Of a stretch of 64,000 nt of DNA, positions 4,129-56,681 are shown piece by piece (position 1 is the first letter of the stretch; every line of letters begins with the position of its first letter). Position numbers and translations under genes: made by a program. The DNA is taken from NCBI GenBank assembly GCA_016188575.1, contig JACPHN010000039.1, positions 12,308 to 76,307 of the forward strand, in the 5' to 3' direction. The notes beneath the pieces were generated by a model that was not told where the DNA came from, did not search any database, and worked only from the letters and a program-made list of their open reading frames with translations. Origin of the DNA: Candidatus Schekmanbacteria bacterium. GTDB lineage: Bacteria > CSSED10-310 > JACPHN01.

Positions 4129-4700
4129 CCTCGCCCTCCGTCTGCAGTAGCGGGGTCGCGGATGACCCGCGCCGCCGGCCAGGTCAGCAACCATCGGCTG
4201 CGCGAGCTCCCGGTCTGCCGCTCCAGCGTCATGCCATCGGCCAGGCCATGGGGGCCCAGCACCGGACCCGCGGCGGCGCCGCTCCCATCCGCGCCGGAAG
4301 GACGGCCGTCGCGGCCCAAGATTCGCCAACCGGCCGGCAGGCGCACCGGATCCGGAGACCCGGCCGCCGCCGCGGCGTTGGCGTCGGCCGCCATGAAGCG
4401 GAGGATCTCTCCTCCGGGCTCGACCACCACGCGCAGCATCGCGTCATTGTCGGCGCACCAGGCGGCGGCCGAGGAAAACCAGCGTTCGACTTCCTGCGCC
4501 TCGGCAACGGGTCCTCCGAGTGACCGCCTGCCGAACGCGGGCAGCGCCAGGCCCATCATGATCGCGGTCAGCGCGATCACGACCGCCACCTCAAGCAACG
4601 TGAAGCCGCGCCGGCCCACGGCTTCGGCAGCGTCGCCGCCGCAGCACCTGGCCGACCGTGGATCAGAGCATTTCCCCGAATCCGCCGACGAGCTCCTCAT
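4125..4700 (-). CDS. gspH: Type II secretion system pseudopilin GspH
   Basis: GspH is a minor pseudopilin. The hydrophobic signal is FTLLEVAVVIALTAIMMGLA after a Gly, with Glu at +5. The C-terminal domain follows, giving roughly 190 residues. The ATG at 4700 is preferred; an upstream GTG at 4721 would add seven residues. The leader is unusually long for a prepilin (about 31 residues with two adjacent cysteines), so a later non-ATG start cannot be excluded. The gene lies a few tens of bases after gspG and is coupled to gspI. Confidence 0.87.
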   Translation of the reverse strand: MRSSSADSGKCSDPRSARCCGGDAAEAVGRRGFTLLEVAVVIALTAIMMGLALPAFGRRSLGGPVAEAQEVERWFSSAAAWCADNDAMLRVVVEPGGEILRFMAADANAAAAAGSPDPVRLPAGWRILGRDGRPSGADGSGAAAGPVLGPHGLADGMTLERQTGSSRSRWLLTWPAARVIRDPATADGGRG

Positions 4701-4739
4701 CGGACATGGCCCTCGCTCCACACGCCGCGTTCGCTCGCG

Positions 4740-5204
4740 TCACTGGGCGTCCCACACGCTGATGTCCTGGTCAATACCATCCCCGCCGTCCTGCCCGTCG
4801 GCACCGAGTGACACCAGGTCGAACGGGCGGCCGTCAGGCGCGGGTGACACGTAGATAAAAGGAGCCCCCCACGGATCCACCGGGATTTGCCCGCCCTCCA
4901 GGTATCCTCCCTCGCGCCACGCCGCCGGACGCGGCTCTAGCTCCGGAGGCTGGACGAGCGCCCTGAGCCCTTGCGCGGTTGTCGGGTAACGGCTGTTGTC
5001 CAGCCGGTAGAGCTTCACGGTGGAAGCGAGGCTCGCGAGCTGCATCCGCACCTTGGCGAGCCGCGCATCGTCCGCGCGATCCACGATACGAGGCACCACC
5101 AGGCCGGCCAGAATGCCGAGAATCACGACCACCACCATGATCTCAATGAGCGTAAAGCCGCGCTCGCACGCGGCGGCACGGGCAGAACATCGGGCTTTCA
5201 GCAT
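4740..5204 (-). CDS. gspG: Type II secretion system major pseudopilin GspG
   Basis: GspG is the major pseudopilus subunit and the first gene of this operon. The 154-residue product has a 15-residue leader, Gly, then FTLIEIMVVVVILGILAGLV with Glu at +5. The family signatures follow: the PTTAQGLRALV helix, the VDPWGAPF strand, and a C-terminal Asp-rich loop (GADGQDGGDGIDQD) typical of the calcium site. A GAGAGGA ribosome-binding sequence precedes the ATG. Unusually, no gspC, D, E or F lies upstream; the next gene is divergent. A candidate sigma70 promoter is annotated just upstream. Confidence 0.96.
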   Translation of the reverse strand: MLKARCSARAAACERGFTLIEIMVVVVILGILAGLVVPRIVDRADDARLAKVRMQLASLASTVKLYRLDNSRYPTTAQGLRALVQPPELEPRPAAWREGGYLEGGQIPVDPWGAPFIYVSPAPDGRPFDLVSLGADGQDGGDGIDQDISVWDAQ

Positions 5205-5235
5205 GCGCGTCCTCTCGAATCCTCAATCCGTACAG

Positions 5236-26755: not shown

Positions 26756-26973
26756 GAACCAGACGGCAGGAAATCAAATCGAGCCCCAAAGCCAGCGGAG
26801 ATGGAAACGTAAGGTCTGGAGGACGGTAAGGCATGATCGACCGCTTTGAAGCCCGCGCCGCACGAGGGCAGGTGCAAGATGTCCGCGGCCGTGCGGTGCC
26901 CGCCGCGCCCTCGTACGAGAGTCTGCCGAGCGCAAGGGCGCGCAGTACGCGCGGCGGTCCGGCGGTTCGGGAG

Positions 26974-28305
26974 ATGAGCGTGCGGGTCGAGGTCATCACG
27001 CCGATCCTCGGCGGCGGCACCCAGATCCGCGCGATCGACGCGGTCGATGTCATTCGTGCGGCCACCGCGCGTGGGCATCTTCGCTTCTGGTGGCGCGCCA
27101 TCTACTCCGTTCAGTGCCAGGGCGCAGAGGACTTGTACGCGCGCGAGAGCGCGCTTTGGGGGCGGGCCGCGACGGACGAGGGCGGACGGTCCGCTATCGA
27201 AGTCCGCATCGACGTCGAACAGGCGAGCCCGATCGACGAGAGCGACATCCGCCTCTACGACTCGAGAGATGGCAAGGCGACGCCGGGCGCTTACGCGCTC
27301 TGGCCAGCGCGCGCGGAAACGAGGACGAGGACGCCCCCGGCCCCTCGCCGCGAGCAGGGCACACGGTTCCTGTTGACGCTTCTCGTTCCCGCAAATCGCG
27401 AGGGCGAGATACGGAATGCGGTTCGTGCATGGCTCCTCTTCGGTGGCTACGGCAGCCGTACGCGACGCGGTCTCGGGAGCTTCAGGGTTCTGGACGACCC
27501 CAGCTCGTGGCTGCCGTCAATGGCGACGCGCGAGGCGATCAAAACCCTCTTCGGTCTCGACGTCTTTGCTTCGCCCGGAAAGACGGTCACCGATTCGCCA
27601 TGGCTCGGAGGTGCGGCGCTTCAGGTCGGCAAGGTCGAGCGCGACGCGATGAAGGCGTGGATGACCGCACTCGAATGGCTCAAGGAGTTCCGGCAGGGAA
27701 CCAGCGGCCAGTCCGGTGAAAGCGCGCGCGAGCCTGGAACCAGGAAGCTGCAGCCCCAGCGGCCGTCGATCTCCAACTGGCCGGAGGCTGACAAGGTGCG
27801 GCATCTGTCGACTGCGAAGAAGGGCCTTCGTTGGGCTCACCAGCCGCGTCACAACGGCTCGCCAGCCTGGCCGCGCGCGGGCTTCGGTCTACCCATCATC
27901 GGGCAGTTCCAACAGCAGAGTCGGCAGAAGAACCAGGCGGGTAAGAACCTCTACTGGGACCAGCTCGCAACTACCGACCCGAGCTACGGGACGGAGCCGG
28001 GCAGCTTCGAGCTGTGCTGGCGCTCCGGTAACTCTGAGCATGATCGCCTCGCGAGCCCGCTGATCGTGAAGGAGCTGCCGCTCGCCGACGGGACGTTCGT
28101 CCCATGTGCGATGTGGCTCAACCGAGCCTATCCCGACGGCAACGTCGTCCTACGCGGAGTGAACAACTCGGCCGCGCCCTTCGACCGCCTTGTCGCCGCC
28201 GGCGACACGCCTCGCTTCTCGGCGCTTGCGAACAAGCTGAGCCTACGGCAGGCGTTCCTCGACTGGCTGCACGCCAAGTACCGCACGACGGTGGTAGCGC
28301 CATGA
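26974..28305 (+). CDS. cmr1: Type III-B CRISPR RAMP protein Cmr1
   Basis: Cmr1 is the RAMP subunit at the crRNA 3' end of the Cmr effector complex. The start MSVRVEVITPILGGGTQ and RATAARGHLRFWWRA-like block (residues about 24-38) match the family's first RAMP motif, and GYGSRTRRGLGSF is the second glycine-rich loop. The protein has two RAMP folds and 443 residues. ATG at 26974 is used because the 47 in-frame residues before it look like insertion-sequence flank. However, an ATG at 26833 has a stronger GGAGGA site, so the longer form cannot be dismissed. It is the first gene of a seven-gene overlapping operon. Confidence 0.88.
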   Translation: MSVRVEVITPILGGGTQIRAIDAVDVIRAATARGHLRFWWRAIYSVQCQGAEDLYARESALWGRAATDEGGRSAIEVRIDVEQASPIDESDIRLYDSRDGKATPGAYALWPARAETRTRTPPAPRREQGTRFLLTLLVPANREGEIRNAVRAWLLFGGYGSRTRRGLGSFRVLDDPSSWLPSMATREAIKTLFGLDVFASPGKTVTDSPWLGGAALQVGKVERDAMKAWMTALEWLKEFRQGTSGQSGESAREPGTRKLQPQRPSISNWPEADKVRHLSTAKKGLRWAHQPRHNGSPAWPRAGFGLPIIGQFQQQSRQKNQAGKNLYWDQLATTDPSYGTEPGSFELCWRSGNSEHDRLASPLIVKELPLADGTFVPCAMWLNRAYPDGNVVLRGVNNSAAPFDRLVAAGDTPRFSALANKLSLRQAFLDWLHAKYRTTVVAP

Positions 28306-30086
28306 CCGCTCACCTGCTCCTCGTCACGCTCGGCCCCGTACAGGACTTCATCGCGCAGGCGCGGCGTACGCGTGACCTCTGGTACGGAAGCCACGTTCTC
28401 TCGGAGCTTGGGCGCGCGGCGGCGCGCGCTCTCGTCGAAGGCAACGCGGAGCTTGTTTTTCCGGCGCTGAAGAAGGGCGATGGAGAGCTCGAGCCGTGTC
28501 TCGGTGCGCTGCGACCCGACGAAAAGCTTCCCCTGACCGTCGCCAACAAGCTCCTCGCCGAGGTTCCCTCCGGGATCGATCCCGAGAAGCTCGCGAGAGC
28601 GGTGCGCGAGGCGGTCCTGCAGTACTGGCGCGAAGATGTCGCAGCACCCGTCAAAGCCAAGTGCGCCGGCCTCCTCCCCGATGCCATCGATGCCGTCTGG
28701 ACCGAGCAGATCGACACCGTCGTCGAGTTCGCGGCGAGCTGGTTGCCGCTCGGCGAGTACGCTGAAACGCGCCGCCAGATCGACAGCGCCATCGCCAGTC
28801 GGAAGATGCTACGCGACTTCGGTCCGTGGACGCACGGACGCGGCTCCGTACCCAAGTCGAGCCTCGATGGAGCAAGGGAGACCATCCTCGTGCCGCCGCG
28901 AGCGCGGCAGACGACGCTCGTGCGCAAATACCGGATCGCGGATGGCGAGCAACTCGACGCCGTCGGCCTCGTGAAGCGCGCCGGTGGTGAGCCCGCTCAG
29001 TTCGTGCCCGTCGTAAACGTCGCGCTCGCGTCCTGGGTGGAGCTCGTAAATCGCGTGGCCGCGCTGGAGCTCGAGAAGCTCCGGGATGCGTGCGGGGCGG
29101 CGGGCGTCTCGCGCGTCGTGCGCGCGGACCTCCCGTGCGCAGCGACGTTTCCCTTTGACGCCAGCGTGCTTATTCCGAGCCGCTGGCGGTCGGTGTTCGA
29201 GGAGCAGGGGCTCGAAGGTGACGCGGAGTCATGGGGCCGAGTGCACGTGCAGCCGATCCTCGACAAGGTCTCGGACTCGTATCCGTACGTCGCGTGCCTC
29301 GTCGCCGACGGCGACCACATGGGCCGTGCGATCGATCGCTTCGGCTCGGCTGCCGACCACCGTATTTTCTCCGAGGCTCTCGCGCAGTTTGCCAGCGAGG
29401 CGAGAACGGTGGTCGAGCAACGCCATCGCGGCATCCTTGTCTACGCGGGGGGCGATGACGTGCTCGCGTTCTTGCCGCTCCCCGAGGCGCTCGCGGGCGC
29501 GGAAGATCTTCGCTTGCGCTTCAGCGGCGTGATGGCATCCGCGTGTTCGTCATCGATCGAAATGCAGCGGCCGACGCTGTCAGTCGGCCTCGGAGTCGGT
29601 CACCTCATGGAAAGTATGGGCGATCTGCTGGCGCTCGGACGGGCGGCCGAACGAGAGGCCAAGCGCGACCGCAACGCGCTCGCGGTGCTGGTGGACAAAA
29701 GGTCAGGAGGCCGCAGTTCCTGGCGCGGGCAGTGGAGCGAGGATCCGGTCCGTGGTCTGCACGACAGCGCTGCCTTGCTGCAGGACCGTCTCCCGGCTCG
29801 CAAGGTCTATGAAATCGCGAGCACCCTGGCGCGTCTGCCGGAACCTGGGGACGCGAGCGGCGACGGCTGGGCACGGCTCCTCGCACTCGAGGTCAGGCGC
29901 TCGCTGGCTCGCACCGAAAGTGGGGGCCTGGACCTCCAGAGCGCCGGCCTCGCGCTCGACGACGGAGCCGGCTACCCGGCGCTGCACGCCCGTGTCCGCG
30001 CATGGGTCGCGCGGCTGCTGATTGCCCGTACGTTCGCACAGGCGATCCCGCGCGAGCGGCAGCGCGAAAAGGAGGAGGCCGCATGA
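28302..30086 (+). CDS. cmr2: Type III-B CRISPR effector subunit Cmr2 (Cas10), HD-less
   Basis: Cas10 is the signature subunit; on target-RNA binding it makes cyclic oligoadenylates. The 594-residue protein opens directly with the family motif LLLVTLGPVQDFIAQARRTR (usually preceded by an N-terminal HD nuclease domain, absent here), so it probably lacks ssDNase activity. The second palm domain carries the cyclase motif YAGGDDVLAFLP (GGDD at about 382-385), which is intact. ATG at 28302 overlaps the cmr1 stop (ATGA). The cyclase is paired with a CARF-HEPN effector at the end of the operon. Confidence 0.92.
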   Translation: MTAHLLLVTLGPVQDFIAQARRTRDLWYGSHVLSELGRAAARALVEGNAELVFPALKKGDGELEPCLGALRPDEKLPLTVANKLLAEVPSGIDPEKLARAVREAVLQYWREDVAAPVKAKCAGLLPDAIDAVWTEQIDTVVEFAASWLPLGEYAETRRQIDSAIASRKMLRDFGPWTHGRGSVPKSSLDGARETILVPPRARQTTLVRKYRIADGEQLDAVGLVKRAGGEPAQFVPVVNVALASWVELVNRVAALELEKLRDACGAAGVSRVVRADLPCAATFPFDASVLIPSRWRSVFEEQGLEGDAESWGRVHVQPILDKVSDSYPYVACLVADGDHMGRAIDRFGSAADHRIFSEALAQFASEARTVVEQRHRGILVYAGGDDVLAFLPLPEALAGAEDLRLRFSGVMASACSSSIEMQRPTLSVGLGVGHLMESMGDLLALGRAAEREAKRDRNALAVLVDKRSGGRSSWRGQWSEDPVRGLHDSAALLQDRLPARKVYEIASTLARLPEPGDASGDGWARLLALEVRRSLARTESGGLDLQSAGLALDDGAGYPALHARVRAWVARLLIARTFAQAIPRERQREKEEAA

Positions 30087-31249
30087 CGAGGACTGCGCGT
30101 GTTGCCCTCGTTCCACGTGACGGCATCTTCTGCAAGGACGGAAGGGGCTGGCATACGAGCGCCTCCGGCCGCGGGCACGGTCTTGACTGGCCATGGCCGT
30201 CCACTATCCTCGGCGCGCTCCGATCGGCCTGGGGTCGAGCGGAGGAGGCAAGGATTGGTGCCATCTTCGGCCCCGACGACTGGCGGACGCGCACGGCGAC
30301 AATCCGGCTCGGGAGAACGCTGGCGCTCCGGCGGCGACACGGTGCCGCGTGGGGCACCGAGCACGCAACGTGGCCGGTTCCCCTGGACGCCCTCTGGCTC
30401 GAGCGCCGAACCGAGGTACATCGGCTCGACCCGGTCGAGCCCGTCGCACCGACGCTCGGGCGCGACGACGACAAGGCCCGCGAGGACCTGATGCGGCCCT
30501 TCCTCGATGGCGCCGGGAAGCCGCTCCCGCCGCCACGCTGGTGGAGCAACGAGGACTTCTCGGCCTGGCTCGCGGGGCACTCCGTCCCGGTGCGAGACGG
30601 CGACGACGTACTCGCCATGGCGCGCCGCCTTCAGGTGCACGTCGGCATTCTTCCCGAAGAGCTCACGGCCGACGAGGGCGTCCTCTTTTCGCACGACGTG
30701 ATCGAGACGCTCGATTCGGACGCCGAATGGGCGATCGGAGCCGAGGCCGTCCTTCCGGACGGCGAGCTGTCCGCGGTCACGACGCTCGGATCAGATGGGC
30801 GCCTGGTGCGTGTGGAGCCGCTGCCCGACGCGCTTTTCGAGCCGCCTGCGCTGGTGCTCGAAGCCTTCCGGGCCACGAGCATCGGCCTGCGGATCGCCGC
30901 TGTCACGCCGATCTGCTTCGAACGAGGCTGGTTGCCCGTCGGCTTGGAGCGGCAAGCTGGCATGTACCGGGGCCGCGTACCCGGCATCGACCACGAAGTG
31001 ATCCTGCGCGCAGCCTTCGTCCCGCGACCGAGTCACGTTTCGGGCTGGGATATGGCGGCGGGTGCACCGAAGCCGACCTCGCGCCTCGTAGCGCCGGGTG
31101 CCGTCTACTTCTTCGAGCGAACGGATGCGAAGCCTTTCGGTGAAGTCGACGCCCGGTCGCTCTGGCTCGCGGCGCTTGGCGAGCGCACGGATGAGGGCTT
31201 CGGGCGGGTCGTTCCGGGAGTCTGGAGTCCGAAGAGGAGCACCCGATGA
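30083..31249 (+). CDS. cmr3: Type III-B CRISPR RAMP protein Cmr3
   Basis: Cmr3 pairs with Cmr2 at the base of the complex and holds the crRNA 5' handle. The 388-residue protein starts with VALVPRDGIFCKDGRGW and the conserved WPSTILGALRSA helix. A second RAMP half follows, ending in TDEGFGRVVPGVW, a glycine-rich loop typical of Cmr3. GGAGGAGG precedes the ATG at 30083, which overlaps the cmr2 stop (ATGA). Confidence 0.88.
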   Translation: MTRTARVALVPRDGIFCKDGRGWHTSASGRGHGLDWPWPSTILGALRSAWGRAEEARIGAIFGPDDWRTRTATIRLGRTLALRRRHGAAWGTEHATWPVPLDALWLERRTEVHRLDPVEPVAPTLGRDDDKAREDLMRPFLDGAGKPLPPPRWWSNEDFSAWLAGHSVPVRDGDDVLAMARRLQVHVGILPEELTADEGVLFSHDVIETLDSDAEWAIGAEAVLPDGELSAVTTLGSDGRLVRVEPLPDALFEPPALVLEAFRATSIGLRIAAVTPICFERGWLPVGLERQAGMYRGRVPGIDHEVILRAAFVPRPSHVSGWDMAAGAPKPTSRLVAPGAVYFFERTDAKPFGEVDARSLWLAALGERTDEGFGRVVPGVWSPKRSTR

Positions 31250-32112
31250 ACACGAGACCATTTATCCTGCACGCGCTATCGCCGCTCCACGCTGGTACCG
31301 GACACGCGGCGGACGTCATCGATCTGCCTACGGCGCGCATGAAGGCGACCGGCATTCCTTTCGTGCCGGGCTCGTCCGTCAAGGGCGTGCTGCGGGACGC
31401 TCGGCGTAGCGGCGATCGTGACAAGACCGAGGCGGTCTTCGGTCCCTCAGATGATCCGGCCGCGCATGCGGGCGCGCTCGTCGTCGGTGACGCGCGCCTG
31501 TTGGCGCTGCCGGTCCGGAGCTTCCGCGGCACGTTCGCGTGGACGACCTCGCCGCTGCTCCTCGCGCTCGCGAAGCGCGATCTCGACGACGTCGGGAAGG
31601 ACCTCTCCATCCCCAGCATCAGCCGCGGTGCGCAGCTCGCCCCAGGAAGTTGCTGCGGCCACAACGGTCGGCTCTACCTCGAGGATCTGGATCTGCCCGC
31701 GACCGAATCCAAGGAGGCGGCCGCCTGGGCACGGTTCCTCGCTCCGCTCGCATCGCCCGGGGACGACATCTTCACGAAGCGCTTCGCCATGGTCGACGAC
31801 GACACCATGACATTCCTCTGGGAGACAGCGACGCAGCTGGACGCACGGGTCCGCCTGGACGAGAAGACGCGCACCGTCGCCCCCGGCGCCTTGTGGCTGG
31901 AGGAGAGCCTCCCACCAGAAACACTGCTCATCGGTCTGCTTGCGGCGGATCGCAGCCGCCGGCGCGGCACCGCCATGACGCCTGACGATGTCTTGGGCTT
32001 CGCGCTTGCCGGCGAGGAGGTCTTCCAGCTCGGAGGCAAGGCGACGACCGGGCGCGGCCGGTGCCGGATGATCCCCGTTGCGCGAAAGGATGCCGGCCAT
32101 GGCAACACCTGA
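31246..32112 (+). CDS. cmr4: Type III-B CRISPR backbone nuclease subunit Cmr4
   Basis: Cmr4 forms the helical backbone and cuts the bound target RNA at six-base intervals. The N-terminus is a strong match (LHALSPLHAGTGHAADVIDL). Asp26 in VIDLP corresponds to the catalytic aspartate known in this family and is retained. PGSSVKGVLRDA is the RAMP glycine loop, and QLGGKATTGRGRC the C-terminal loop. The 288-residue length is normal. The start overlaps cmr3 (ATGA), and the end overlaps cmr5 by 14 bases. Confidence 0.95.
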   Translation: MNTRPFILHALSPLHAGTGHAADVIDLPTARMKATGIPFVPGSSVKGVLRDARRSGDRDKTEAVFGPSDDPAAHAGALVVGDARLLALPVRSFRGTFAWTTSPLLLALAKRDLDDVGKDLSIPSISRGAQLAPGSCCGHNGRLYLEDLDLPATESKEAAAWARFLAPLASPGDDIFTKRFAMVDDDTMTFLWETATQLDARVRLDEKTRTVAPGALWLEESLPPETLLIGLLAADRSRRRGTAMTPDDVLGFALAGEEVFQLGGKATTGRGRCRMIPVARKDAGHGNT

Positions 32113-32479
32113 CGCGCTCCAGAAGCCCCTCCGGCGTGACCAGCGGTGCGCTCTTCATGCCTACGAGGCGGTCGGCAGAGTGCCGAGAAACCAGCAGAAG
32201 GACTACGAGATCACGGTCAACGACCTTGGCACCAACATCCTGCGCAGCGGCCTGTGCGCCGCGATAGCGGGGCTGCAGCGCCTCGGCAATCGCGGGGAGC
32301 TTCTCCTCGGCCACCTCGCCGCCGCCAGCGTCTCGGGTCTGGATGGCGCAACCGCGGACGACCTCGCCCGGCGCGTGCGCGAGCTCGATGCTGACACGTA
32401 CATGATCTCTACGCGCGAGATGCTGCAGGTCGCGGTGTGGCTCAAGCGCGCCGTGCAGGCGACCTTCGGAGGTGCTTGA
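32099..32479 (+). CDS. cmr5: Type III-B CRISPR small subunit Cmr5
   Basis: Cmr5 is the small, all-helical subunit that lines the backbone of the complex. This 126-residue protein is helical (LRRDQRCALHAYEAV, LGTNILRSGLCAAIAGLQ, and the closing REMLQVAVWLKRAVQATF). The last motif, an alternating aromatic/basic helix, is the recognisable family end. Identification leans on operon position between cmr4 and cmr6. ATG at 32099 is taken, overlapping cmr4; slightly earlier ATGs are in frame. Confidence 0.85.
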   Translation: MATPDALQKPLRRDQRCALHAYEAVGRVPRNQQKDYEITVNDLGTNILRSGLCAAIAGLQRLGNRGELLLGHLAAASVSGLDGATADDLARRVRELDADTYMISTREMLQVAVWLKRAVQATFGGA

Positions 32480-32481
32480 GC

Positions 32482-33636
32482 ATGCGCCAGGTGCTGCAGT
32501 CGGTTGGCACTCCGGATCACGTCGGACTTGCCTATGACGCGTGGGCGCCCGTCGGAGAGGACGGCAAGGTGCCAGACTGCGATCGCGCGAGCTGGCTCTC
32601 CGCGCTCGCCGCGATCGCCATTCCGCCCGAGTACTCGCGATCGTTCGAGCGCTGGAAGGCGAGCTTCTCGGCGCCGGGTGATCGTCTATTCGAACTGGTG
32701 CTGGCCAGCCGGCTACTCGTTGGGCACGGCAACTCGAGCGCGATCGACCTCGGGATCACCGTGCACCACACCTGGGGCGTGCCGGTGATTCCGGGATCGG
32801 CGCTGAAAGGCCTCGTCGCACACTTCGTCGATACGGTGTACGGCCCTGATGACGCGGCGCTCCCGCCATGGGAGCAACCCGATACTGAGCTCGCTCGGGC
32901 GGACTACCAGGGAGTGACGTGGCGTGACCGACGCGTCGAGCGCGGCCCCGGCGCGGTCTATCGCGCGCTCTTCGGTGCGCCAGAGGCCGGGGCGGACGAG
33001 GCAATGCGAGCGCAGGGGTTCGACGCGGGCGCCTCGTCCGGCCTGGTGATGTTTCACGATGCCCTCTACGTGCCGAATAGCGGCACGGACGACAGCCCAT
33101 TCGTAGCCGACGTTCTCACGGTGCACCAGAAGGCGTACTACGACGGTTCGGGCGGAAGCTGGCCCAACGACTACGACAGCCCGAATCCGGTCGCCTTTCT
33201 CACCGTGCGTCCCGGCGCGCGGGTGCTCTTCGCGCTGTCCGGCCCCGCGGACTGGACGGAGCTCACCGAGCGGCTTCTGATTGACGCACTCAAGAAATGG
33301 GGGGTCGGTGGCAAGACGAGCGCCGGCTACGGCCGCTTCGTGACCGCCGAGAAGGGCACGGCTTCCCGCGGCGAGAGCTCCGATCCGTCGCGGGGCACCC
33401 CGAATGCCGCACGGCCCCGCCACCAGCGCGGCGAGCGCATCACGGTGAGGCGTGTCGACGATCCCACGGGCAAAGGTAAGGTGAAGTTCCGCGCTGCGGA
33501 CGGCTTCCTCGGTCACTTCGCTGAGGAGGCGCCACCGCAGGTGCCGATCGGCGAAGCTACCGAGATATGGGTCGCCAACGTGAGCGCCCAGGGCTACACG
33601 CTCACGTTGCGTCAACCCAAGGAGAGGAGGCGATGA
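32482..33636 (+). CDS. cmr6: Type III-B CRISPR RAMP protein Cmr6
   Basis: Cmr6 is the terminal RAMP that, with Cmr1, caps the crRNA 3' end. The family core is RLLVGHGNSSAIDLGITVHH, then PVIPGSALKGLVAHF, and a late GVGGKTSAGYGRF loop. An unusual C-terminal extension of about 90 residues follows, containing Arg/Lys-rich linkers and a small beta-rich segment, making the protein 384 residues, longer than most Cmr6. The ATG at 32482 is two bases past the cmr5 stop. Confidence 0.9.
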   Translation: MRQVLQSVGTPDHVGLAYDAWAPVGEDGKVPDCDRASWLSALAAIAIPPEYSRSFERWKASFSAPGDRLFELVLASRLLVGHGNSSAIDLGITVHHTWGVPVIPGSALKGLVAHFVDTVYGPDDAALPPWEQPDTELARADYQGVTWRDRRVERGPGAVYRALFGAPEAGADEAMRAQGFDAGASSGLVMFHDALYVPNSGTDDSPFVADVLTVHQKAYYDGSGGSWPNDYDSPNPVAFLTVRPGARVLFALSGPADWTELTERLLIDALKKWGVGGKTSAGYGRFVTAEKGTASRGESSDPSRGTPNAARPRHQRGERITVRRVDDPTGKGKVKFRAADGFLGHFAEEAPPQVPIGEATEIWVANVSAQGYTLTLRQPKERRR

Positions 33637-35153
33637 CCGGGCCCGCGCTCGCGTCGCTGTCGCCTGAGCTGCTTGATGTACAGCGTCGCTGGTTCGATCT
33701 GCCTCGTAGGGAGCAGGACGACCTGTACGCTCGGGAGTTTGCTGCGCCCTTTGCCCGAGACTTCTCCAAATTGCCTCTTCATGGTGCGCCGCGCGACATG
33801 CCGCGGCCCCGCGCTCTTGTGAGCGTCCTCGGGTTGTCGTGGCAGCCCGTGGCCCTGATGGCTGCATGGTGCAGGCCCGAGCGGATGCTGATCCTCTGCA
33901 CCGACGAGTCGTTGAAGGTCACGCCGGCCGGCGACGGCGTCATCTCCTTCATTGCCCGTGTCGCGGGCGTCAAGAGCGAGGTGATCGAGCACGTTCGCGT
34001 TGGTGACCCTGGGGAAGCAGACATTTACCGCGCAGTCCGTGATTTTCTGCGCCGCGCTAAAGTTCCCCCGCGAGAGATCTTCGTCGACCCGACCGGCGGG
34101 AAGAAGTCGATGTCGGCCTCCGCCGCGCTGGCCGGGTTCCTCGCCGGCACGCCGCTCGTCTACGTCGACTACGGCCAGTATCATGGCCCCAACCGCATTC
34201 CGATCGCGGGGACCGAGTACCCGCGGCTCCTCGCAAACCCCCTCGAGGTGATGGGTGACCTCGAGCTGCGTGACGTATTCGGGGCGTTCAACCGGAGCGA
34301 CTTCAACGAGGCGGAGCGGCTCGCAGGAAGACTGGCTGCTCGCGTCTACGAGCCGCGCGAGGCCGAATGCCTCGAACGCCTTGCCCGAGGCTACGCGGCG
34401 TGGGATCGGTTTGACTTCCGTGCCGCTCATCTAGCGCTCCAGGAGGCTCGCGACGTGCTGGACCGCTTCGCCGACCAAGGCGGATGGGTCTGGGCATCCA
34501 CCGTGCGGGACGCGCTCGCACGCAACCTCCCTGCGCTCCATGACCTCGAACAGGTTCCGCGGCGGCCGGATCGGATAGAGGCAGGCGTCCCTTTGCTCGC
34601 CTGGTATCTCGCCGCGGCTGGTCGGTTCCTCGCCGTCGGAAAGCCGAGCCTCGCGGTGCTCCTCACGTATGCCGCCGTCGAGCGTTACGTGGACCTCTGT
34701 CTCTGGATCGATTTCAAGCTCGACGACGAGAAGCCCGATTACTCGCTAGTTGACTGCAAGCTCGATCGGGAGAAGCACCACGAAGCGGGTCGTCGACTCT
34801 TTGGCAAGGAGTACAGGCCGCGCGAGCTCGATGGCCCGATCATGTTCACGAACGGCGCACAGCTCCTTGCCGCCCTGGCGCCGGGACGACTCGCGATGGA
34901 TGACCTCGGGCTGTTGATGGGGCTCTCAAGCGCGAGGAACAGTTGCGAGTACGAGCACGGGTTCCTCCCGAAGATCCCCAAGTGCGAGGACGTCGAGCGG
35001 TATCTGCAGAGGGCGAAGCTGCTTATCGGGCGAGTGTGCAGTAGCGCGGAAGATCTCGATCACAGGCTACTCGATCACCGCTTCCCAACTCTTGACCTCG
35101 AGGAGGCGAGCATACCAACGTTTCCAACCCACGGAGAGAGAGCGGAGCACTGA
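33633..35153 (+). CDS. CRISPR ancillary ribonuclease, TIGR02710-type CARF-HEPN protein
   Basis: A cOA-activated RNase of the Csm6/Csx1 kind. The first 250 residues are CARF-like, with the TIGR02710 signature VDPTGGKKSMSASAALAGFL (about 148-167) and the following PIAGTEYPRLLANP. The C-terminal half is helical with a HEPN catalytic motif R435-x6-H442 (ARNSCEYEHGF). Length is 506 residues. Its position directly after cmr6 (ATGA overlap, GGAGAGGAGG site) and the intact Cas10 cyclase motif imply that cyclic oligoadenylate from Cmr2 activates it to degrade RNA during infection. Confidence 0.87.
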   Translation: MTGPALASLSPELLDVQRRWFDLPRREQDDLYAREFAAPFARDFSKLPLHGAPRDMPRPRALVSVLGLSWQPVALMAAWCRPERMLILCTDESLKVTPAGDGVISFIARVAGVKSEVIEHVRVGDPGEADIYRAVRDFLRRAKVPPREIFVDPTGGKKSMSASAALAGFLAGTPLVYVDYGQYHGPNRIPIAGTEYPRLLANPLEVMGDLELRDVFGAFNRSDFNEAERLAGRLAARVYEPREAECLERLARGYAAWDRFDFRAAHLALQEARDVLDRFADQGGWVWASTVRDALARNLPALHDLEQVPRRPDRIEAGVPLLAWYLAAAGRFLAVGKPSLAVLLTYAAVERYVDLCLWIDFKLDDEKPDYSLVDCKLDREKHHEAGRRLFGKEYRPRELDGPIMFTNGAQLLAALAPGRLAMDDLGLLMGLSSARNSCEYEHGFLPKIPKCEDVERYLQRAKLLIGRVCSSAEDLDHRLLDHRFPTLDLEEASIPTFPTHGERAEH

Positions 35154-42604: not shown

Positions 42605-43387
42605 ATGGATCGTACCGGAAAACGCCGTGGCCCCTACTGGGCGCTGATCGAGAGCTGGGCGGTGTGGGTGGTCGCCTTTCCGCTCGCGCTGGCGGCGGCG
42701 CCGCGATCGCCGGCGCTGCTGCTGGCAATTGCCCTCGGTGGCCTGGCGATCTGCGCATACAGTCTCCAGCGGCAGATGATCGCCGCCTGGGTCGTGCGTG
42801 TCCCGTTAGCGCTCAACACCGGGATCGCTGTGCTCTTCGCCGTGCTGCTGCGCGGGCTCGACGTGGCATGGTTTCATCTGCCGCTCAACGTGGCGTTACT
42901 CGGCGTGGCCGCGTGGCTGGGCCTGGAGGTCGGCGGGCGGATCGCGCAGCGGGAGCATCTCGTGCCGCTGCTGATCGTCGTCTCGGCGGTGGACACCTGG
43001 AGCGTCTACCGCGGGGTCTCGGCGGGGCTCGTGTCGTCCGGGAAGATCGCCTACTTTCTGCCGAGCTTGCCGCTGGCACCCGAAGCCTGGTTACCCATCA
43101 TCGGTGTTGGCGATCTTTGCGTGGTGGCGATCATACTCGCCGCGGGTCGATCCTTGGGGTTGCCGTCGTGGCGGGGCGCCGCAGCGCTCTGGATCGGTCT
43201 GGGACTGGCGCGCGCGGTGGCGCACGCGGTAGCCGCTCCTCTTCCCGCCCTGCCGGTGAGCGCGCCGATCTATTATTTGGCACTGCGGAGAGAGCTGCCG
43301 CTATCTCGCCGGGATCTGGCGATTGCGCTCGCGTTTCTGGCGGTATTGGGAGCGGTCCTCGTGGTGATGCGCGCTATTGCACGTTGA
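42605..43387 (+). CDS. Multi-span membrane protein with presenilin/SPP-like GxGD and PAL motifs
   Basis: A 260-residue, strongly hydrophobic protein with about eight predicted spans and no cytoplasmic domain. It carries three motifs in the order and context of aspartyl intramembrane proteases (presenilin and signal peptide peptidase, family A22): Asp130 in VVSAVDTWSVYRG (like the YD motif), GVGD at 167-170 (GxGD) at the start of a hydrophobic span, and PAL at 214-216 (PLPALP). The two Asp residues are 40 apart, shorter than in eukaryotes but plausible for a minimal form. If correct it would cleave membrane peptides. No similarity search was possible. The stop overlaps the regulator gene end by 14 bases. 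Confidence 0.6.
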   Translation: MDRTGKRRGPYWALIESWAVWVVAFPLALAAAPRSPALLLAIALGGLAICAYSLQRQMIAAWVVRVPLALNTGIAVLFAVLLRGLDVAWFHLPLNVALLGVAAWLGLEVGGRIAQREHLVPLLIVVSAVDTWSVYRGVSAGLVSSGKIAYFLPSLPLAPEAWLPIIGVGDLCVVAIILAAGRSLGLPSWRGAAALWIGLGLARAVAHAVAAPLPALPVSAPIYYLALRRELPLSRRDLAIALAFLAVLGAVLVVMRAIAR

Positions 43388-44780
43388 GGCCGAGGTCGAT
43401 CCCGAGCTCGCGGATCTTGTTGTAGAGGGTCTTGACGCTGACGTCGAGGAGCTCCGCGGCCGCGGCGCGCGCGCCGTCCGTAACGCGCAGCGCGGCCACT
43501 ACGGCGTCTCGCTCGGCGTCGCGAACCGCGTCCTTCAGCGGGCGGATCGCCGCGCCGCAAGTGGTCGGGGTAGGCGCATTTCCTGGCGCGCACGTCTCAC
43601 CGGCCGTCGCGCCCTCGCCCGTGCGCTCGGCGGCAGGCGGCAGCACGGCGCGAGGATCGGCCAGGATCACGGCGCGCTCGATGGCGTGCATCAGCTCGCG
43701 GACATTCCCCGGCCAGGTGTACGCGCGCATTGCTGCCAATGTCTCCGCGGCGAACGGGCCGAGCTCGCGGCCATACTTGCTCTCGAACTGGCGGATAAAG
43801 TGGTGAGAGAGCGGCTCCAGATCGTTCAGGCGCGCGCGCAGGGGCGGCAGCCGGAGCGTGACAACGGCGAGACGGTAGTACAAGTCCGGGCGAAACCGGC
43901 CGGTTTGCACGGCGCTCTGAAGGTCGACGTTGGTAGCGGCGATGACTCGCGCGTTTACGTGTCGCGACGCGACGCCGCCGACCCGCGTCACCTCTCCTGA
44001 CTCGAGCGTGCGCAGCAGCTTGGCCTGGGCATTGGGCGCCAGCTCTCCGATCTCGTCGAGGAAGACCGTGCCGCCGTCGCCCGCCTCGAACCGGCCGAGC
44101 TTCGCCGCGTGCGCGCCCGTAAAGGCCCCGCGCTCGTGGCCGAAGAGCTCACTCTCGATCAAGGCCTCGGGCAGGGCCGCGCAGTTTACCGCGATCCATG
44201 GTCCGTGGCGCCGCCCCCCGCTCCAATGCAGCGCCCGCGCCACGAGCTCCTTCCCGGTGCCGGTCTCGCCAATGACGAGCACCGGGACGTCGGTGTCGGC
44301 GAGGCGCTGCATCTGACTGAAAAGGTCGCGCATCGGCGGGCTCTCGCCGAGCAGCGGCGGCGCTCCGGGGCCAAGGTCGAAGCCCGGCCGGCTGTCTCTC
44401 GCCAGGCGCAGCAGGCCACTGGCTTCCAGGCCGCGCTGCACCGCGTGCAGAAGATCCTGGTTGCGGAAAGGCTTGACGAGAAAATCGAACGCCCCGTCCT
44501 TGAGTGCGGCCACGGCGGTGTCTACCGTGCCGTAGGCGCTGATCATGATGACGGGAATCCGGTCAGCGCGCCGGCGGAGCGCGCGCAGCGCCTCCGCACC
44601 GCTGATTCCGGGCAGCTTCAAGTCCATCACCACGCCGTCGAAGGTGGCGGACTCGAGCAGTCGCAACGCGTCCTCGCCGCTGGCGCAGGCGCACGCGGCA
44701 TGGCCGGCGCGCCCCAGCACGTCGGCCAGCATTTCCCGCATGTTGGGTTCGTCGTCCACGACCAGGATGCGCGCGCTCAT
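43374..44780 (-). CDS. NtrC-type sigma54-dependent response regulator
   Basis: A 468-residue enhancer-binding regulator. The receiver domain has the phospho-acceptor Asp53 (VMDLKLPG) with acidic pocket VVDDEPN. The AAA+ domain shows Walker A GETGTGKE, the sigma54-contact loop ERGAFTGA, and the GGTVFLDEIGEL Walker B. The C-terminus is a Fis-type helix-turn-helix (RAAAAELLDVSVKTLYNKI). It activates sigma54 promoters when phosphorylated by the adjacent kinase. ATG at 44780 overlaps the kinase stop (ATGA). Possible targets in this window are the sigma54 promoters listed. Confidence 0.95.
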   Translation of the reverse strand: MSARILVVDDEPNMREMLADVLGRAGHAACACASGEDALRLLESATFDGVVMDLKLPGISGAEALRALRRRADRIPVIMISAYGTVDTAVAALKDGAFDFLVKPFRNQDLLHAVQRGLEASGLLRLARDSRPGFDLGPGAPPLLGESPPMRDLFSQMQRLADTDVPVLVIGETGTGKELVARALHWSGGRRHGPWIAVNCAALPEALIESELFGHERGAFTGAHAAKLGRFEAGDGGTVFLDEIGELAPNAQAKLLRTLESGEVTRVGGVASRHVNARVIAATNVDLQSAVQTGRFRPDLYYRLAVVTLRLPPLRARLNDLEPLSHHFIRQFESKYGRELGPFAAETLAAMRAYTWPGNVRELMHAIERAVILADPRAVLPPAAERTGEGATAGETCAPGNAPTPTTCGAAIRPLKDAVRDAERDAVVAALRVTDGARAAAAELLDVSVKTLYNKIRELGIDLGLNVQ

Positions 44781-46447
44781 GCCTTCCCTCCGGCGACCAG
44801 AATGACGTGAAATGCGGTCCCTTCTCCGGGTCGGCTTTCCACCTCGAGCCGCCCATTGTCGCTTTCCACCGCCTGACGGGCCAACGCCAGACCGAGCCCC
44901 GTCCCGCCGTCCTTGGTGGTGACATACTCCGCGAAAAGGTGCGCGGAGACGTCCACGGCGATGCCGGGCCCGAGATCCCAAACGGTGATGCGCACCGCCG
45001 GTCGGCCCTCGTCAGCGCAGGTGGCGGTGCGGATGCCCGCCGCGCCGCCCGGGCCGGACGCCTCCAGAGCATTCTTCAGCAGATTGTAGAGCGCGCCGCG
45101 GAGCCGTTCCTCGTCGGCCCAGACCGGGGGGAGGCCGGCGGTCAGCTCGGTCTCGACCGCGCCAGCGCGTCCTTGCGGAGCGCCGCGTGCCAGCGCCGCG
45201 ACGCTCTCGGCGAGCGCGTTGACGTCGAGCAGCCGTGGCCGCGGCGCCGGCTCCCGAGCCCGCAGCAGCAACCGCGAGACTTTCTCATCGATGCGCGTCA
45301 CTTCCTCTTCGATGATCCGCAGGCACTTGCTCACCATCGCTCGCGCCCGCGCGTCCAGCTCGACCTTGTCCAGCTCTTCACGCAGAATCTCGGCGTAGCC
45401 GCGAATGGGCCCGAGCGGATTCTTGATTTCGTGCGCGACCGCCGCCGCGAGATTGCCGAGCAGCGCCAGATGCTCGGCCTGCTCCAGCCGCGACCGCGTG
45501 CGCTCGAGCTCCAGTCGCAACTGCTCGGCGCGAGCGCGCAAGGCGACACGCTCGTTGGACAGCACCCGTGCCGCGAACCGCTCGAGATGCGGGCGCACCG
45601 CGAGAAACCCGAAGCTGGCGAATAGCGCAACGATGGTGGCGAGCGCCACGGCGGGGAGCCCCAGTTGGAGATCGAGCACGTGATCGAGCGACCACGCGGT
45701 CAACGCGGTCACGATCGCGACGCCGCCGGCGGCGGCGCCGAAAAGCAGGGCGCGGTCGAGCAGGCCGCGGAGTGATACGCGCCGCCAGCGCACCAGCGCG
45801 AGCAGGTTGAGCTCGGCACAGAGCACGAGCATGAGCATTTCCGACGGCACCCTGCCGCCCCTCGACCCGCCCGCGAACAGCATCAGCCCCAGCGCGGCCA
45901 GCGGTAGCAGGACGTTGATCGCGAGCACCGCGGACAGCTCGGCGACCTCCGGTCCGCCGCCGAGCGCCTTGCGGCTTGTGACCAGAAGCCAGACGCCGGC
46001 GCCCAGCATCCCGAGCAGATAGAGCGTAAGGAGGGCGGCAGCCGCCACGCCGGGCGGCTCGCTGCGCCAGTAGTGGCTGGCGGCACCTTGTGCCAGTCCA
46101 AGCCGCGGCAATGCGTAGGCCATGATCAGGAAGGGCGCGAGGAGCAGCAGATCGGCGGCGAAGCCATGGCGCCGCCGCAGCGGACCGCGCCGGTACGCCG
46201 CCGCCTGGGTGAGAAAGGCGGCCGGCACGAGCAGCGCTCCGGCCATGGCGACGAGGATCGCCGCGGACGTTCCGCGCCCGAGATGGAAGAGGACGCCGCC
46301 GGAGCACCACAGCGCGGCCGCCAGGGCGTGCAGCGCGAAAGCGTGGCAAAACCGCGTTGTGGGCGCGCGCACCACGACGTGCAGCGCCAGACTGGCGTTG
46401 ATCGCGAGCGCCACGATGCCGAGCGCGATGCGGAGCATGCGGGTCAC
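44777..46447 (-). CDS. Membrane sensor histidine kinase
   Basis: A 556-residue kinase with seven or more hydrophobic spans in its first 300 residues, lacking a large periplasmic sensor loop, so it may sense a membrane or lipid signal. A coiled coil then leads to the dimerisation/phosphorylation site VAHEIKNPLGPIRGYAE, followed by the ATPase motifs NLLKNALEA (N box), VWDLGPGIA (G1) and GGTGLGLALARQ (G2). It is the cognate partner of the downstream regulator. The N-terminal membrane region is of the 7TMR-like type. It is divergent from the exported-protein gene at 46950. Confidence 0.93.
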   Translation of the reverse strand: MTRMLRIALGIVALAINASLALHVVVRAPTTRFCHAFALHALAAALWCSGGVLFHLGRGTSAAILVAMAGALLVPAAFLTQAAAYRRGPLRRRHGFAADLLLLAPFLIMAYALPRLGLAQGAASHYWRSEPPGVAAAALLTLYLLGMLGAGVWLLVTSRKALGGGPEVAELSAVLAINVLLPLAALGLMLFAGGSRGGRVPSEMLMLVLCAELNLLALVRWRRVSLRGLLDRALLFGAAAGGVAIVTALTAWSLDHVLDLQLGLPAVALATIVALFASFGFLAVRPHLERFAARVLSNERVALRARAEQLRLELERTRSRLEQAEHLALLGNLAAAVAHEIKNPLGPIRGYAEILREELDKVELDARARAMVSKCLRIIEEEVTRIDEKVSRLLLRAREPAPRPRLLDVNALAESVAALARGAPQGRAGAVETELTAGLPPVWADEERLRGALYNLLKNALEASGPGGAAGIRTATCADEGRPAVRITVWDLGPGIAVDVSAHLFAEYVTTKDGGTGLGLALARQAVESDNGRLEVESRPGEGTAFHVILVAGGKA

Positions 46448-52898: not shown

Positions 52899-52914
52899 CG
52901 AGAGGCGAAAACCA

Positions 52915-52987
52915 CGGTCCCTACGGGAGTCGAACCCGTGCTACCAACGTGAGAGGCTGGCGTCCTGGGCCACTAGACGAAGGGACC
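52915..52987 (-). tRNA. tRNA-Glu (anticodon CTC)
   Basis: A 73-base tRNA. The acceptor stem is GGTCCCT/AGGGACC, the anticodon stem CCAGC/GTTGG with loop CTCTCAC (anticodon 52951-52953), and the T arm has the usual GTTCGACTC. Discriminator base is G; CCA is not encoded. It reads GAG codons. Confidence 0.95.
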
Positions 52988-53067
52988 AGCGATGTCCTGC
53001 TATTATGGCGCCAGGCGCGGCTTTCGTCAAGATCCACCCGCCGTCGCCCGGTCCCTGGACTCGGTGC

Positions 53068-56000
53068 TCACTCAATGCACACCGCGTGAACCTGCCTGAG
53101 ATCGCATAGCCCTTGGGCCATCTTCTCCAGCCCGTCCTGCAAGAGCGTCGTCATTCCCTCGGCCCGCGCCTGCCGGCGCAACTCGGTGATGGGCTTGCGC
53201 TCGTAGATCAGGCGCTTGATCGCGTCCGAGCCGACCAGCAGCTCGTGAATGGCCACCCGCCCCCGGTAACCCGTGCCGCCGCACTGCTCGCAGCCCTTGC
53301 CCCGGTAGAGAATCGGGGTAGCAGCAAAGAAGCTCATTTTTTGCTCCTTGCCGAGTCGCGCCACAGCCGAACGCTCGCCGCCCTCCGCATCATGCGGCAA
53401 GATGGCCGCAAGCGCGGCGTCGACCGCCGCCTGGTCGATGGCGCCGGACGCGGGTAGCGGCGCCGGCATGACCAGCGCCGGCTCCGGCACGGGCGTCGCG
53501 GCCTCCCACGCGGGCTGGGCCGAAAGCGTCAGCCGCGGCGACCGCCCGCCGGGATGCGACCTCTGTCGTGCCGAGGATGGCGTCGAGCGCCTCCTGACTG
53601 AGCTGGTCGCCGCCGAACAAGTCGTCGACGGCCGCCTGATCCATCGGGCCGCCCGGAGCTGGCGGACGGAATTCCTCCGCTGGACCGGGTTTACCGAACA
53701 GCGCATCGATCGCGGACTGGTCGAGCAGCCCCGACACGGCCTCGGGGGCTGGCGGCGCGGGCGCGGGATCACCGAACAGCGCGTCAATTGCGGCCTGCTC
53801 AAGCATCCTCTGGTCAGCACGGGAATTGGTGTGGTTTTCGGTGGCCCCGCCCTCGAGCTCGCGACGCACAGAGCTCACCGCCTGCTCGTCCGCGAAAACG
53901 CTGCCGAACAACGCGTCGACCGCCGCCTGATCGAGTATGCCACCGCCGCCGGAACGTCCTGCGGCGCGCGATGGGCTCGTAGCCGTGTCAGGGGCGCGCT
54001 CCCGCAGCGCGGGGACATTACCGGTCTGCTCGCCCACCAGCAAGGCGTCCAGCGAGCCCTGGCCGAGCGCACCGTTCCGCCCGCTCACCGTCTCCTCGGC
54101 GACGTGCCCGAGCGCCGCCTCGATCGCCGCCTGATCCAACCCGCCGCCGGCGACCACGCCATCGCTCGGCGCGCGGCCACCGGCGCCATCTCCTCCCCCG
54201 GCCCCATCGCCGCCGCCCGGATCGCCGCCCCCGGCCGCCGCTCCCGGCCAGCAACCCATCCCGTACTCCGCGACGATCTCCGCGATTTCCTCCGGGCTCG
54301 CCTCGTACGACTCCCGACAGTTGTCGCAAATCCGCCGGACCAACCGCTGCGCCATGATCCCGAGCAGCGAATCGGCGAAGTTGAACGGATCGACGCCGAG
54401 CTCCAAAATCCGCGTGATGGTCTCCGGAGCGCTGTTGGTATGCAGCGTGGACATCACCAGGTGCCCCGTTAGCGACGCTTCCACCGCCGTGCCGGCCGTC
54501 TCCAGGTCGCGCATCTCGCCGATCATGATGACGTCCGGATCGGCGCGCAAAAACGCCCGCATCGCACGCTCAAAGGTAAAGCCGATCTTCGGTTGGACCT
54601 GGACCTGCCGTAGGCCGTCCTGCGTGATCTCGACGGGGTCCTCGGCCGTCCAGATCTTTCGGTCGATGGTATTGATGTGGCCGAGCGCCGAGTGCAGCGT
54701 CGTGGTCTTGCCGCTTCCGGTCGGGCCGACCACGAGGAAGATGCCGTAAGGCCGCGTCACGATTTCTTGGAACGCGGCCAGATTGCGGGGGCTCAATCCG
54801 AGCTCCTCGATCGGCAGCGGCTTTGACCCCGCCAGAATCCGCATCACGATATCTTCGTTCCCACCGGCCGTGGGCAGCGTCGCGACCCGGAGCTCGACGT
54901 AATCCCCGTGGTAAGGATAGCGAATCTTTCCGTCTTGCGGCAGGCGCTTCTCGGAGATGTCGAGGCTGGCCATGATCTTGAACCGCTGCACGAGCGAGTT
55001 GCGGACCGCTCCGGGGAGCTCCAGGTAGTTCTCGCACTGCCCGTCGACGCGAAAGCGCACCAGGCAGGGAAGCCGGCTGCCCATCGGTTCGATGTGGATG
55101 TCGGATGCCCGTCGACCGATCGCGGTGCGGATGATCTGATTGGCGAGCCGGACAACGCTGGAGTCGCTTTCGTCGAGCTCGACCTCCTCGCTCTCGCTGG
55201 ACGTGAGCTTGGTCTTGTCCTTTGACTTCTCCTCCGAGACCTTGAGCTCCTCGTTGAGCTCGCGGATGAGGCGAGCGACGTCCGGCATGGCGGCGCCGGC
55301 GCCACCGAGGCCGAGCTCGGCCTCGGCAATGCTCGTGCTGCGAGCAAACTCCGACACGCGGCTGGACATCAGGTACTTTTCGAGCTGCGAAGGCAGCACC
55401 AGCGAGTCTCTTATCCGCTTCTTCAGCAGCAGCGCGGCGGTGTCGAGGTAGGCGGTGTCGAGGGGATCGGCGCAGGCGACCAACAGGCAATCGGAGCGGG
55501 TCTCGTAGGGGAGAAAGCGGAGTTTTTTCGCGAGCTCGAGCGGCACTTCGCGCAGCGCCGCCGGCTGCAGCACGACGTCATCGAGGTTGATGAACGGCAT
55601 GTGGAACGTCATGGCGAGCGACGACGTATACGCTTCTTCGGTCATGATCTTCATGTCGACGATGACCTGGCCAAGCGTCTTCCCCGACGTATGGCGGTGC
55701 ACCTCGCGCGCCTTGGTCAGCTCCTCGGCCGAGCACCAACCTTCCTCGACGAGCATTTGCGTGACCACGAACGTTCGGCGGGCATGCAAGGAGCGTTCGT
55801 AGGCGTCGGCCGTGTCTTGCAGCGGCCCGACTGTGACGACGATCGATTGATCGATGACGCCTTCGGACGGCGAAGGGTTCGCGGCGATCTCGACTCCATG
55901 CCGATAGACGAAGCAGCTCTCGTAGATGGCGTTGCGGCTGGTGCAACGAACGGGTACGCCTTCCGCCAGCGCCGAGGCGCTCCTGTCGATCTCCACGGCG

Positions 56001-56305
56001 AAGCTGTCACCGCCGGGGAACCGCACCGACACCTTCACGTTGTCGCCGCCGCGAACGGCGAAACCGGGTGGGGCGCCGCCACCGTGGTGGAAGCCCACGA
56101 GCGCCACGGAATCGACCGGAATGAGGTGCTCGCCCTGACCCTTCTGACGGGGCGCGTTGGTAAGGCGCATCGGCAGATAGTCGAGATGGGGAGAGAACTT
56201 GTGGAGAGTACCCGCCAGCCGTCGTCCGTCCAGCATGTGGAGGGTTACGGAGTAGTCGCCCTTGGGGCGCTGCGGCGGCGGTGTTCTTGTGTTCCCTTTG
56301 GCCAT
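53068..56305 (-). CDS. PilB/GspE-type secretion or pilus ATPase with internal repeat array and a frameshift
   Basis: A hexameric motor ATPase of type IV pili or type II secretion. An unrecognised beta-rich N-terminal domain (residues 1-150) comes first, then the MshEN domain (SGKTLGQVIVDMKIMTEE, SDCLLVACADPLDTAYLD), then the core: ASDIHIEP, Walker A GPTGSGKTTTLHSALG, Asp box IWTAEDPVEIT and Walker B-type DPDVIMIGEMRD. The zinc knuckle begins with CDNC and ends with CEQC (RGKGCEQCGGTGYRGR), which normally lie about 30 residues apart. Here some 300 residues with eight repeats intervene. A one-base frame change between about 53447 and 53570 separates the frames carrying repeat 7 and repeat 8 plus the C-terminus. 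ATG 56305 is used. Confidence 0.85.
53394..54144 (-). repeat. Eight DQAAIDALFG-like repeats inside the ATPase gene
   Basis: On the minus strand, eight units of consensus hLDQAAIDALFG are spread through Gly/Pro/Ala-rich linkers: LDQAAIEAALG, LGQGSLDALL, ILDQAAVDALFG, MLEQAAIDALFG, LLDQSAIDALFG, MDQAAVDDLFG, LSQEALDAILG and IDQAAVDAAL. Their form echoes the FliM N-terminus LSQAEIDALL. Confidence 0.8.
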
Positions 56306-56681
56306 GGCTCGTTCAGGATACTCTTCGGCGTGATTTCGGCGGCGGATTACGCTCCACCGCGCACCGCCACGCCGGCTCTTCGTATTGTAGCGCGAGAGTG
56401 CCGCGGCCTCCAAAGAAGCCGCGCGGAACCGGCAGCGGTCGTGCCGCGGCGACGGGGATGCTCACGCGTCGAGCGGCTCGTCGCCGCGGCACAACACGAA
56501 GCGCGCCCCCATTCGGCGCTCGCCTCTGAAGGCCGCGCCAACGCTGGCGTGACGCGATGCCCGCCGCATGAAGTCGCGCGTGCGATCGTATATGAAGCGC
56601 TGCAGGCCGGCCCCGTTGGGTTTCACGAGCGGCCAACCGGGGGGGCAGGGCGCGGCGGGCGGGCCTGCCGCCCGGACCAGC
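56306..56681. other. Spacer between ATPase and hydrolase genes
   Basis: No well-supported gene. A minus-strand frame ending at 56462 could encode a short basic peptide (VKPNGAGLQRFIYDRTRDF and onward), but without a clear ribosome-binding site or known family I do not annotate it. The ATPase promoter should lie here. Confidence 0.4.

Follow-up and report, generated by a model that had tools for sequence, protein, structure and literature searches.

An array of FliM-like peptides in the zinc knuckle of a PilB/GspE-type ATPase, a candidate docking site for CheY-type receivers

The N-terminal peptide of the flagellar switch protein FliM (LSQ-x-EIDALL) binds activated, phosphorylated CheY at its α4–β5–α5 face. 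Chemosensory control of pilus and secretion motors, in turn, is known mostly through adaptors. FliM and CheZ bind the same face of CheY (PMC3774744), and exchanging the Ile-Asp pair of Caulobacter FliM for Trp-Ala abolishes the binding of CheY-family proteins (PMC5677366). Among the motors, Xanthomonas PilB is bound by the stand-alone receiver EmvR, which lowers its ATPase activity (PMC11973254), and Synechocystis PilB1 is bound by PATAN regulators (PMC12288463). The metal-binding domain of these ATPases is defined as CXXCX21–40CXXC; the metal-binding loop of EpsE sits on the outside of the hexamer and its residues are exchangeable, and zinc coordination is required for ATPase activity (PMC5061722). 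Here we describe an ATPase of this kind, encoded in a 64,000-nucleotide (nt) stretch of DNA (hereafter referred to as the window), in which a close look-alike of the CheY-binding peptide, known as a single N-terminal copy on a C-ring protein, FliM, is present in eight copies within an internal loop of an ATPase.

A PilB/GspE-type ATPase with an expanded zinc knuckle

The ATPase gene occupies positions 53068–56413 of the minus strand, where two overlapping frames together encode one protein. The main frame (53390–56413, minus strand; 1,007 codons, likely start ATG at 56305) encodes an N-terminal domain, an MshEN-like domain, the ATPase core, the CDNC half of the zinc knuckle and units 1–7 of the array, and the shifted frame (53068–53820, minus strand) encodes the rest of the array (unit 8) and of the knuckle (the CEQC half) together with the C-terminal segment of the ATPase (PF00437 positions 281–368, E = 1.8e-12). 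The MshEN domain, which belongs to a c-di-GMP-binding family, lies at 55370–55606 (minus strand; Pfam PF05157, E = 1.3e-12) and the T2SSE core at 54296–55171 (minus strand; PF00437, E = 1.3e-106). The core contains the Walker A motif GPTGSGKT and the Walker B region DPDVIMIGEMRD, and both motifs are invariant or nearly so in a 34-sequence alignment.

In Foldseek searches, the best matches were PilF (5oiu, E = 7e-40), PilB (5it5 and 5zfr) and EpsE/GspE (1p9r and 4pht), with TM-scores by target of up to 0.92. The T2SSE core, the Walker motifs and the fold place the ATPase in the PilB/GspE subfamily, with whose members (Thermus PilF/PilB, Geobacter PilB and EpsE) it shares the MshEN domain, the core, the Walker motifs and the four knuckle cysteines. 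It differs from them in falling below both equivalog cut-offs, with the main frame alone, which lacks the C-terminal segment carried by the other frame, scoring 430.1 bits for PilB (TIGR02538, curated cut-off 675.65) and 412.4 bits for GspE (TIGR02533, cut-off 630.25), and pilus genes are not adjacent to it. Near the start of the window (77–5222, minus strand) lies a type II secretion pseudopilin cluster, with GspG and GspK identified by Pfam and neighbours resembling gspH, gspJ, gspL and gspM; this gspG–M cluster lacks an adjoining E and F, and the ATPase gene, considered as a possible candidate for its missing gspE, is 48 kb away. A tRNA-Glu (CTC) gene (52914–52988, minus strand) lies directly 3′ of the ATPase gene, and the window also contains type III-B (Cmr) CRISPR genes (26830–35150, plus strand), with Cas10/Cmr2 and a RAMP protein identified by Pfam and neighbours resembling further Cmr genes.

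All four knuckle cysteines are present and invariant in the 34 sequences. The first dicysteine, CDNC, is encoded at 54317–54328 and the second, CEQC, at 53281–53292 in the shifted frame (both minus strand), and they are separated by 1,036 nt from Cys to Cys. The metal-binding loop is thus C-X341-C, compared with 21–40 residues in the described PilB/GspE ATPases, and the change of frame falls within it. An AlphaFold2 model of the read-through protein, computed with 33 homologues in the alignment, is confident for the core and the C-terminal domain; the insert (53326–54247, minus strand; residues 687–993 of the read-through protein), which is missing from homologues, has pLDDT values mostly below 50. 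It comprises about 300 disordered residues, in which eight units are joined by low-complexity, Gly/Ala/Pro-rich linkers. The coordinates thereby confirm the original prediction that eight repeat units separate the CDNC and CEQC halves of the knuckle.

Eight units resembling the FliM N-terminus

The units follow the pattern [LMI][DSEG]Qxx[IVL][DE]xx[LF], and all are encoded on the minus strand. Scored with a forward matrix built from 23 FliM N-termini, six of the eight reach 5.8–16.8 bits. Unit 7 (LSQEALDAIL, 53573–53602) is the nearest to FliM, at 16.8 bits, followed by unit 3 (LDQAAVDALF, 53906–53935; 12.3 bits), unit 4 (LEQAAIDALF, 53774–53803; 9.0 bits), unit 8 in the shifted frame (IDQAAVDAAL, 53410–53439; 7.9 bits), unit 2 (LGQGSLDALL, 54038–54067; 7.5 bits) and unit 5 (LDQSAIDALF, 53696–53725; 5.8 bits); unit 1 (LDQAAIEAAL, 54110–54139) and unit 6 (MDQAAVDDLF, 53615–53644) score about zero. 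Five windows of the insert reach at least 5 bits, compared with a mean of 0.03 in 2,000 shuffles, and unit 8 adds to these from the other frame. With a reverse matrix derived from the units, FliM peptides average 15.6 bits, a score reached by a fraction of 1.2e-5 of background windows, and column-shuffled controls of this matrix never exceed 9.9 bits. A profile built solely from array units of three proteins and searched against 386 genomes mostly retrieves the flagellar switch proteins FliM, FliN and FliY: among 27 fetched foreign loci, 23 carry FliMN_C and 18 FliM. The FliM likeness first noticed in the letters of the window holds in both matrices and in the profile, and the alignment with FliM N-termini that had been proposed as a check matches six of eight units.

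The FliM peptide, with its FliY/FliN equivalent, and the array units have in common the core L-[SD]-Q-x-x-[IV]-D-A-L-[LF], with the Ile-Asp pair, in a short helix (a predicted one in the units) with a Ser/Asp N-cap and disordered flanks. The pair is kept as [IVL]-D in 7/8 units. In contrast, nearly all FliM peptides have a Glu before Ile-Asp, completing ‘EIDALL’, and none of the eight units has one before its Ile, Val or Leu; Ala takes its place in most and Ser in unit 2, and Phe often replaces the second Leu. The C-terminal peptide of CheZ is also similar, as the fetched CheZ loci carry VKQDEVDSLLAG and NQDNVDSLLSQ; unlike the array, it is a single copy at the C terminus, and a search of the window's own genome found no CheZ. 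A PDB sequence search with the concatenated units and a tblastn search of the insert against plasmids each returned zero matches, and searches of the literature on peptide strings and on motif-based links between FliM and PilB turned up nothing about arrays.

In the AlphaFold2 model, 7/8 units coincide with short helices, predicted with the low confidence usual in disordered loops and mostly beginning at or just after the Asp/Ser-Gln; the helix of unit 2 is absent. Silent differences between the units are twice as frequent as replacements (pS 0.51, pN 0.26), and no DNA tandem repeat was detected over them. Because the silent sites have diverged more and the DNA is not detectably repeated, the likeness of the units is kept at the protein level, with the linkers free to vary.

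A change of frame between units 7 and 8

The original prediction was right about the units and their position, and it missed that the array is spread over two reading frames. Units 1–7 share the main frame, from which unit 8 and the CEQC half are displaced by one base, and the codon-position GC signature swaps frame at about 53600–53540, between units 7 and 8. The frame moves by one base in the linker at 53440–53572 (minus strand), through either a real mutation or an assembly error. Solely for folding and aligning the protein, we crossed this point with a single four-letter step (GCTT). Programmed +1 frameshifting was considered and rejected: a stop codon and an obvious slippery site are both absent at the shift, and the change is therefore taken to be an error or a mutation.

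The frame change may be a sign of gene decay. If the gene were a pseudogene, or the locus misassembled, the ATPase would be truncated after unit 7, the CEQC half and the C-terminal domain would be lost, and there would be no working motor bearing the array. The one-base change itself fits such a reading, as does the draft state of the source assembly (275 contigs). However, the coding GC signatures, motifs and cysteines are intact on both sides of the shift, as would be expected if the shift were a sequencing error or had arisen by mutation very recently, and both the core and the C-terminal piece are modelled confidently when read through. We consider this the least probable of the readings weighed here.

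The insertion is found in no homologue

We compared the knuckle in about 110 homologues, comprising seven further ATPases of the window's own genome and about 100 sequences from other genomes. None of them, paralogues included, has an insertion or a motif there, and the equivalent stretch is 42–78 amino acids long and motif-free. Longer regular-expression matches at two loci (L019 and L062) proved to be artefacts of upstream CxxC motifs rather than insertions. Since the insertion is absent from every homologue examined, the conserved arrays in orthologues that had been named as support for the original prediction did not materialize. The window's phylum is thinly sampled, its seven other genomes all coming from different families than the window's; as far as the sampled genomes go, the insertion is private to this lineage. 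Within its own genome, further arrays were sought and the only hits were the ATPase gene and a chance frame of 105 amino acids. One of the paralogues in this genome (C111, L246:5411–9779) is a GAF-type PilB-like ATPase encoded divergently from an adjoining 631-residue T2SSE-family ATPase, whose N terminus resembles a cyclic-nucleotide-binding domain and which is followed by a likely Ser/Thr kinase.

An insertion confined to one lineage, with low-complexity Gly/Ala/Pro-rich linkers, could also be an expansion that a permissive loop tolerates, one that binds nothing and resembles FliM only incidentally; the exchangeable loop residues of EpsE (PMC5061722) would agree with this. Neutral growth of this kind is nevertheless improbable in our judgement, as the protein motif is kept while silent sites diverge, the motif almost never arises in shuffled inserts, and near-identical arrays occur in unrelated proteins of other phyla.

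Similar arrays on membrane-anchored proteins of other phyla

Arrays of this kind occur in three further kinds of host, all with multiple [LM][SD]Qxx[IL]DALL units in disordered cytoplasmic tails; these hosts are unrelated to the window ATPase, and are membrane-anchored proteins rather than motor ATPases. In another phylum (that of genome G146; loci L189–L217 and L174), a TM-TPR family with a single transmembrane segment, which is apparently undescribed, carries a cytoplasmic array of LSQDDLDALL-type units, of which up to 17 were found, in about 20 of the 68 genomes of the phylum. A FimV/HubP-like protein encoded between asd and truA (L175:2811–6404, genome G289) has repeated SDPDDIDALLDN and LDQSALDDLL units, and a zinc-ribbon transmembrane protein (L219:367–2646, genome G211) has about ten GQDDIDAILASAQPAPAEP or SQDDIDALF units. 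The units of the FimV/HubP-like protein suggest that the acidic repeats of HubP may be FliM-like peptides. Among FimV/HubP proteins such repeats differ widely in copy number and in sequence, and the TPR domain is regarded as the main binding site for their clients (PMC12918733). Profile matches in five other genomes (G427, G181, G007, G152 and G182) were dropped as chance.

In the TM-TPR phylum, the profile matched in 23 of 68 genomes. After leaving out one false match, two unconfirmed matches and genomes less than 70% complete, FliM is present in 19/19 genomes with the array and in 26/46 without it (Fisher p = 2.5e-4, with shared ancestry ignored), an association that concerns the TM-TPR host and not the window ATPase. 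This restriction of the family to FliM-bearing genomes ties the array proteins of that phylum to flagellate, CheY-using bacteria.

The presence of related arrays on further membrane-bound and polar proteins is compatible with a docking scaffold and does not identify its partner. The main rival to receiver docking is the recruitment of a different partner, such as a FliN/FliY-like protein, a polar landmark or a TPR adaptor, or self-association of the units to cluster motors, in which case the resemblance to FliM would reflect a shared short, N-capped amphipathic helix. The recurrence of arrays on cytoplasmic tails that have no known receiver link speaks for such a partner, as do the variability of the FimV/HubP repeats and the preference of its clients for the TPR domain (PMC12918733). 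On the other hand, the nearest profile matches, FliM, FliN and FliY, are of the CheY-binding class, the Ile-Asp pair required for receiver binding is, besides the Gln, the best kept feature of the units, and within one phylum the array family goes together with FliM. We regard a non-receiver partner as the less probable of the two.

Candidate docking of CheY-type receivers

From the sequence comparisons, the predicted helices, the cited precedents and the FliM association, the reading that we consider most likely, at about even odds, is that the array provides multivalent docking for CheY-type receivers on the outside of a pilus or secretion motor. In this stand-alone ATPase, a disordered tether would take the place of the metal-binding loop on the hexamer exterior and bear eight FliM-N-like helices, each of which (an Asp/Ser N-cap followed by Qxx[IV]DAL[FL]G) would occupy the α4–β5–α5 groove of a receiver in the manner of the FliM N-terminal helix. 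A hexamer would offer up to 48 sites, and sites that are individually weak may sum to strong receiver recruitment graded by phosphorylation. Because the loop interrupts the zinc knuckle that keeps the ATPase active, receiver occupancy could change ATPase activity or the placement of the motor. An ATPase displaying eight peptides of the flagellar CheY-binding type would constitute a direct, graded link from chemotaxis signalling to the motor. We count against receiver docking the missing Glu, the frequent Phe, the failure of any orthologue or paralogue to keep the array, and the lack of an adjacent che gene: the neighbourhood of the ATPase gene yielded neither CheY nor any other che gene, and of the receivers seen in the window the closest is that of an NtrC-type regulator (43377–45011).

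That such arrays recur on several proteins unrelated to one another suggests that short linear motifs may form a code for receivers. More tentatively than for the window ATPase, we propose that FliM-N-like arrays might form a general, undescribed platform for multivalent binding of CheY-type receivers, carried in various phyla on disordered tails of membrane proteins, polar landmarks and motors, with one such array spliced into the zinc knuckle of this ATPase and letting chemotaxis-type signalling act directly on a motor.

The window's own genome encodes at least 150 receiver domains. Its FliM starts with ATQEILSQAEIDSLL and carries a peptide of the same type, LSQAEIDSLL. Next to fliM, a gene for a FliY-like CheC–FliN fusion (L176:8559–9686) encodes a FliM-like MSQAMIDDIF, located in the inter-domain linker rather than at the N terminus.
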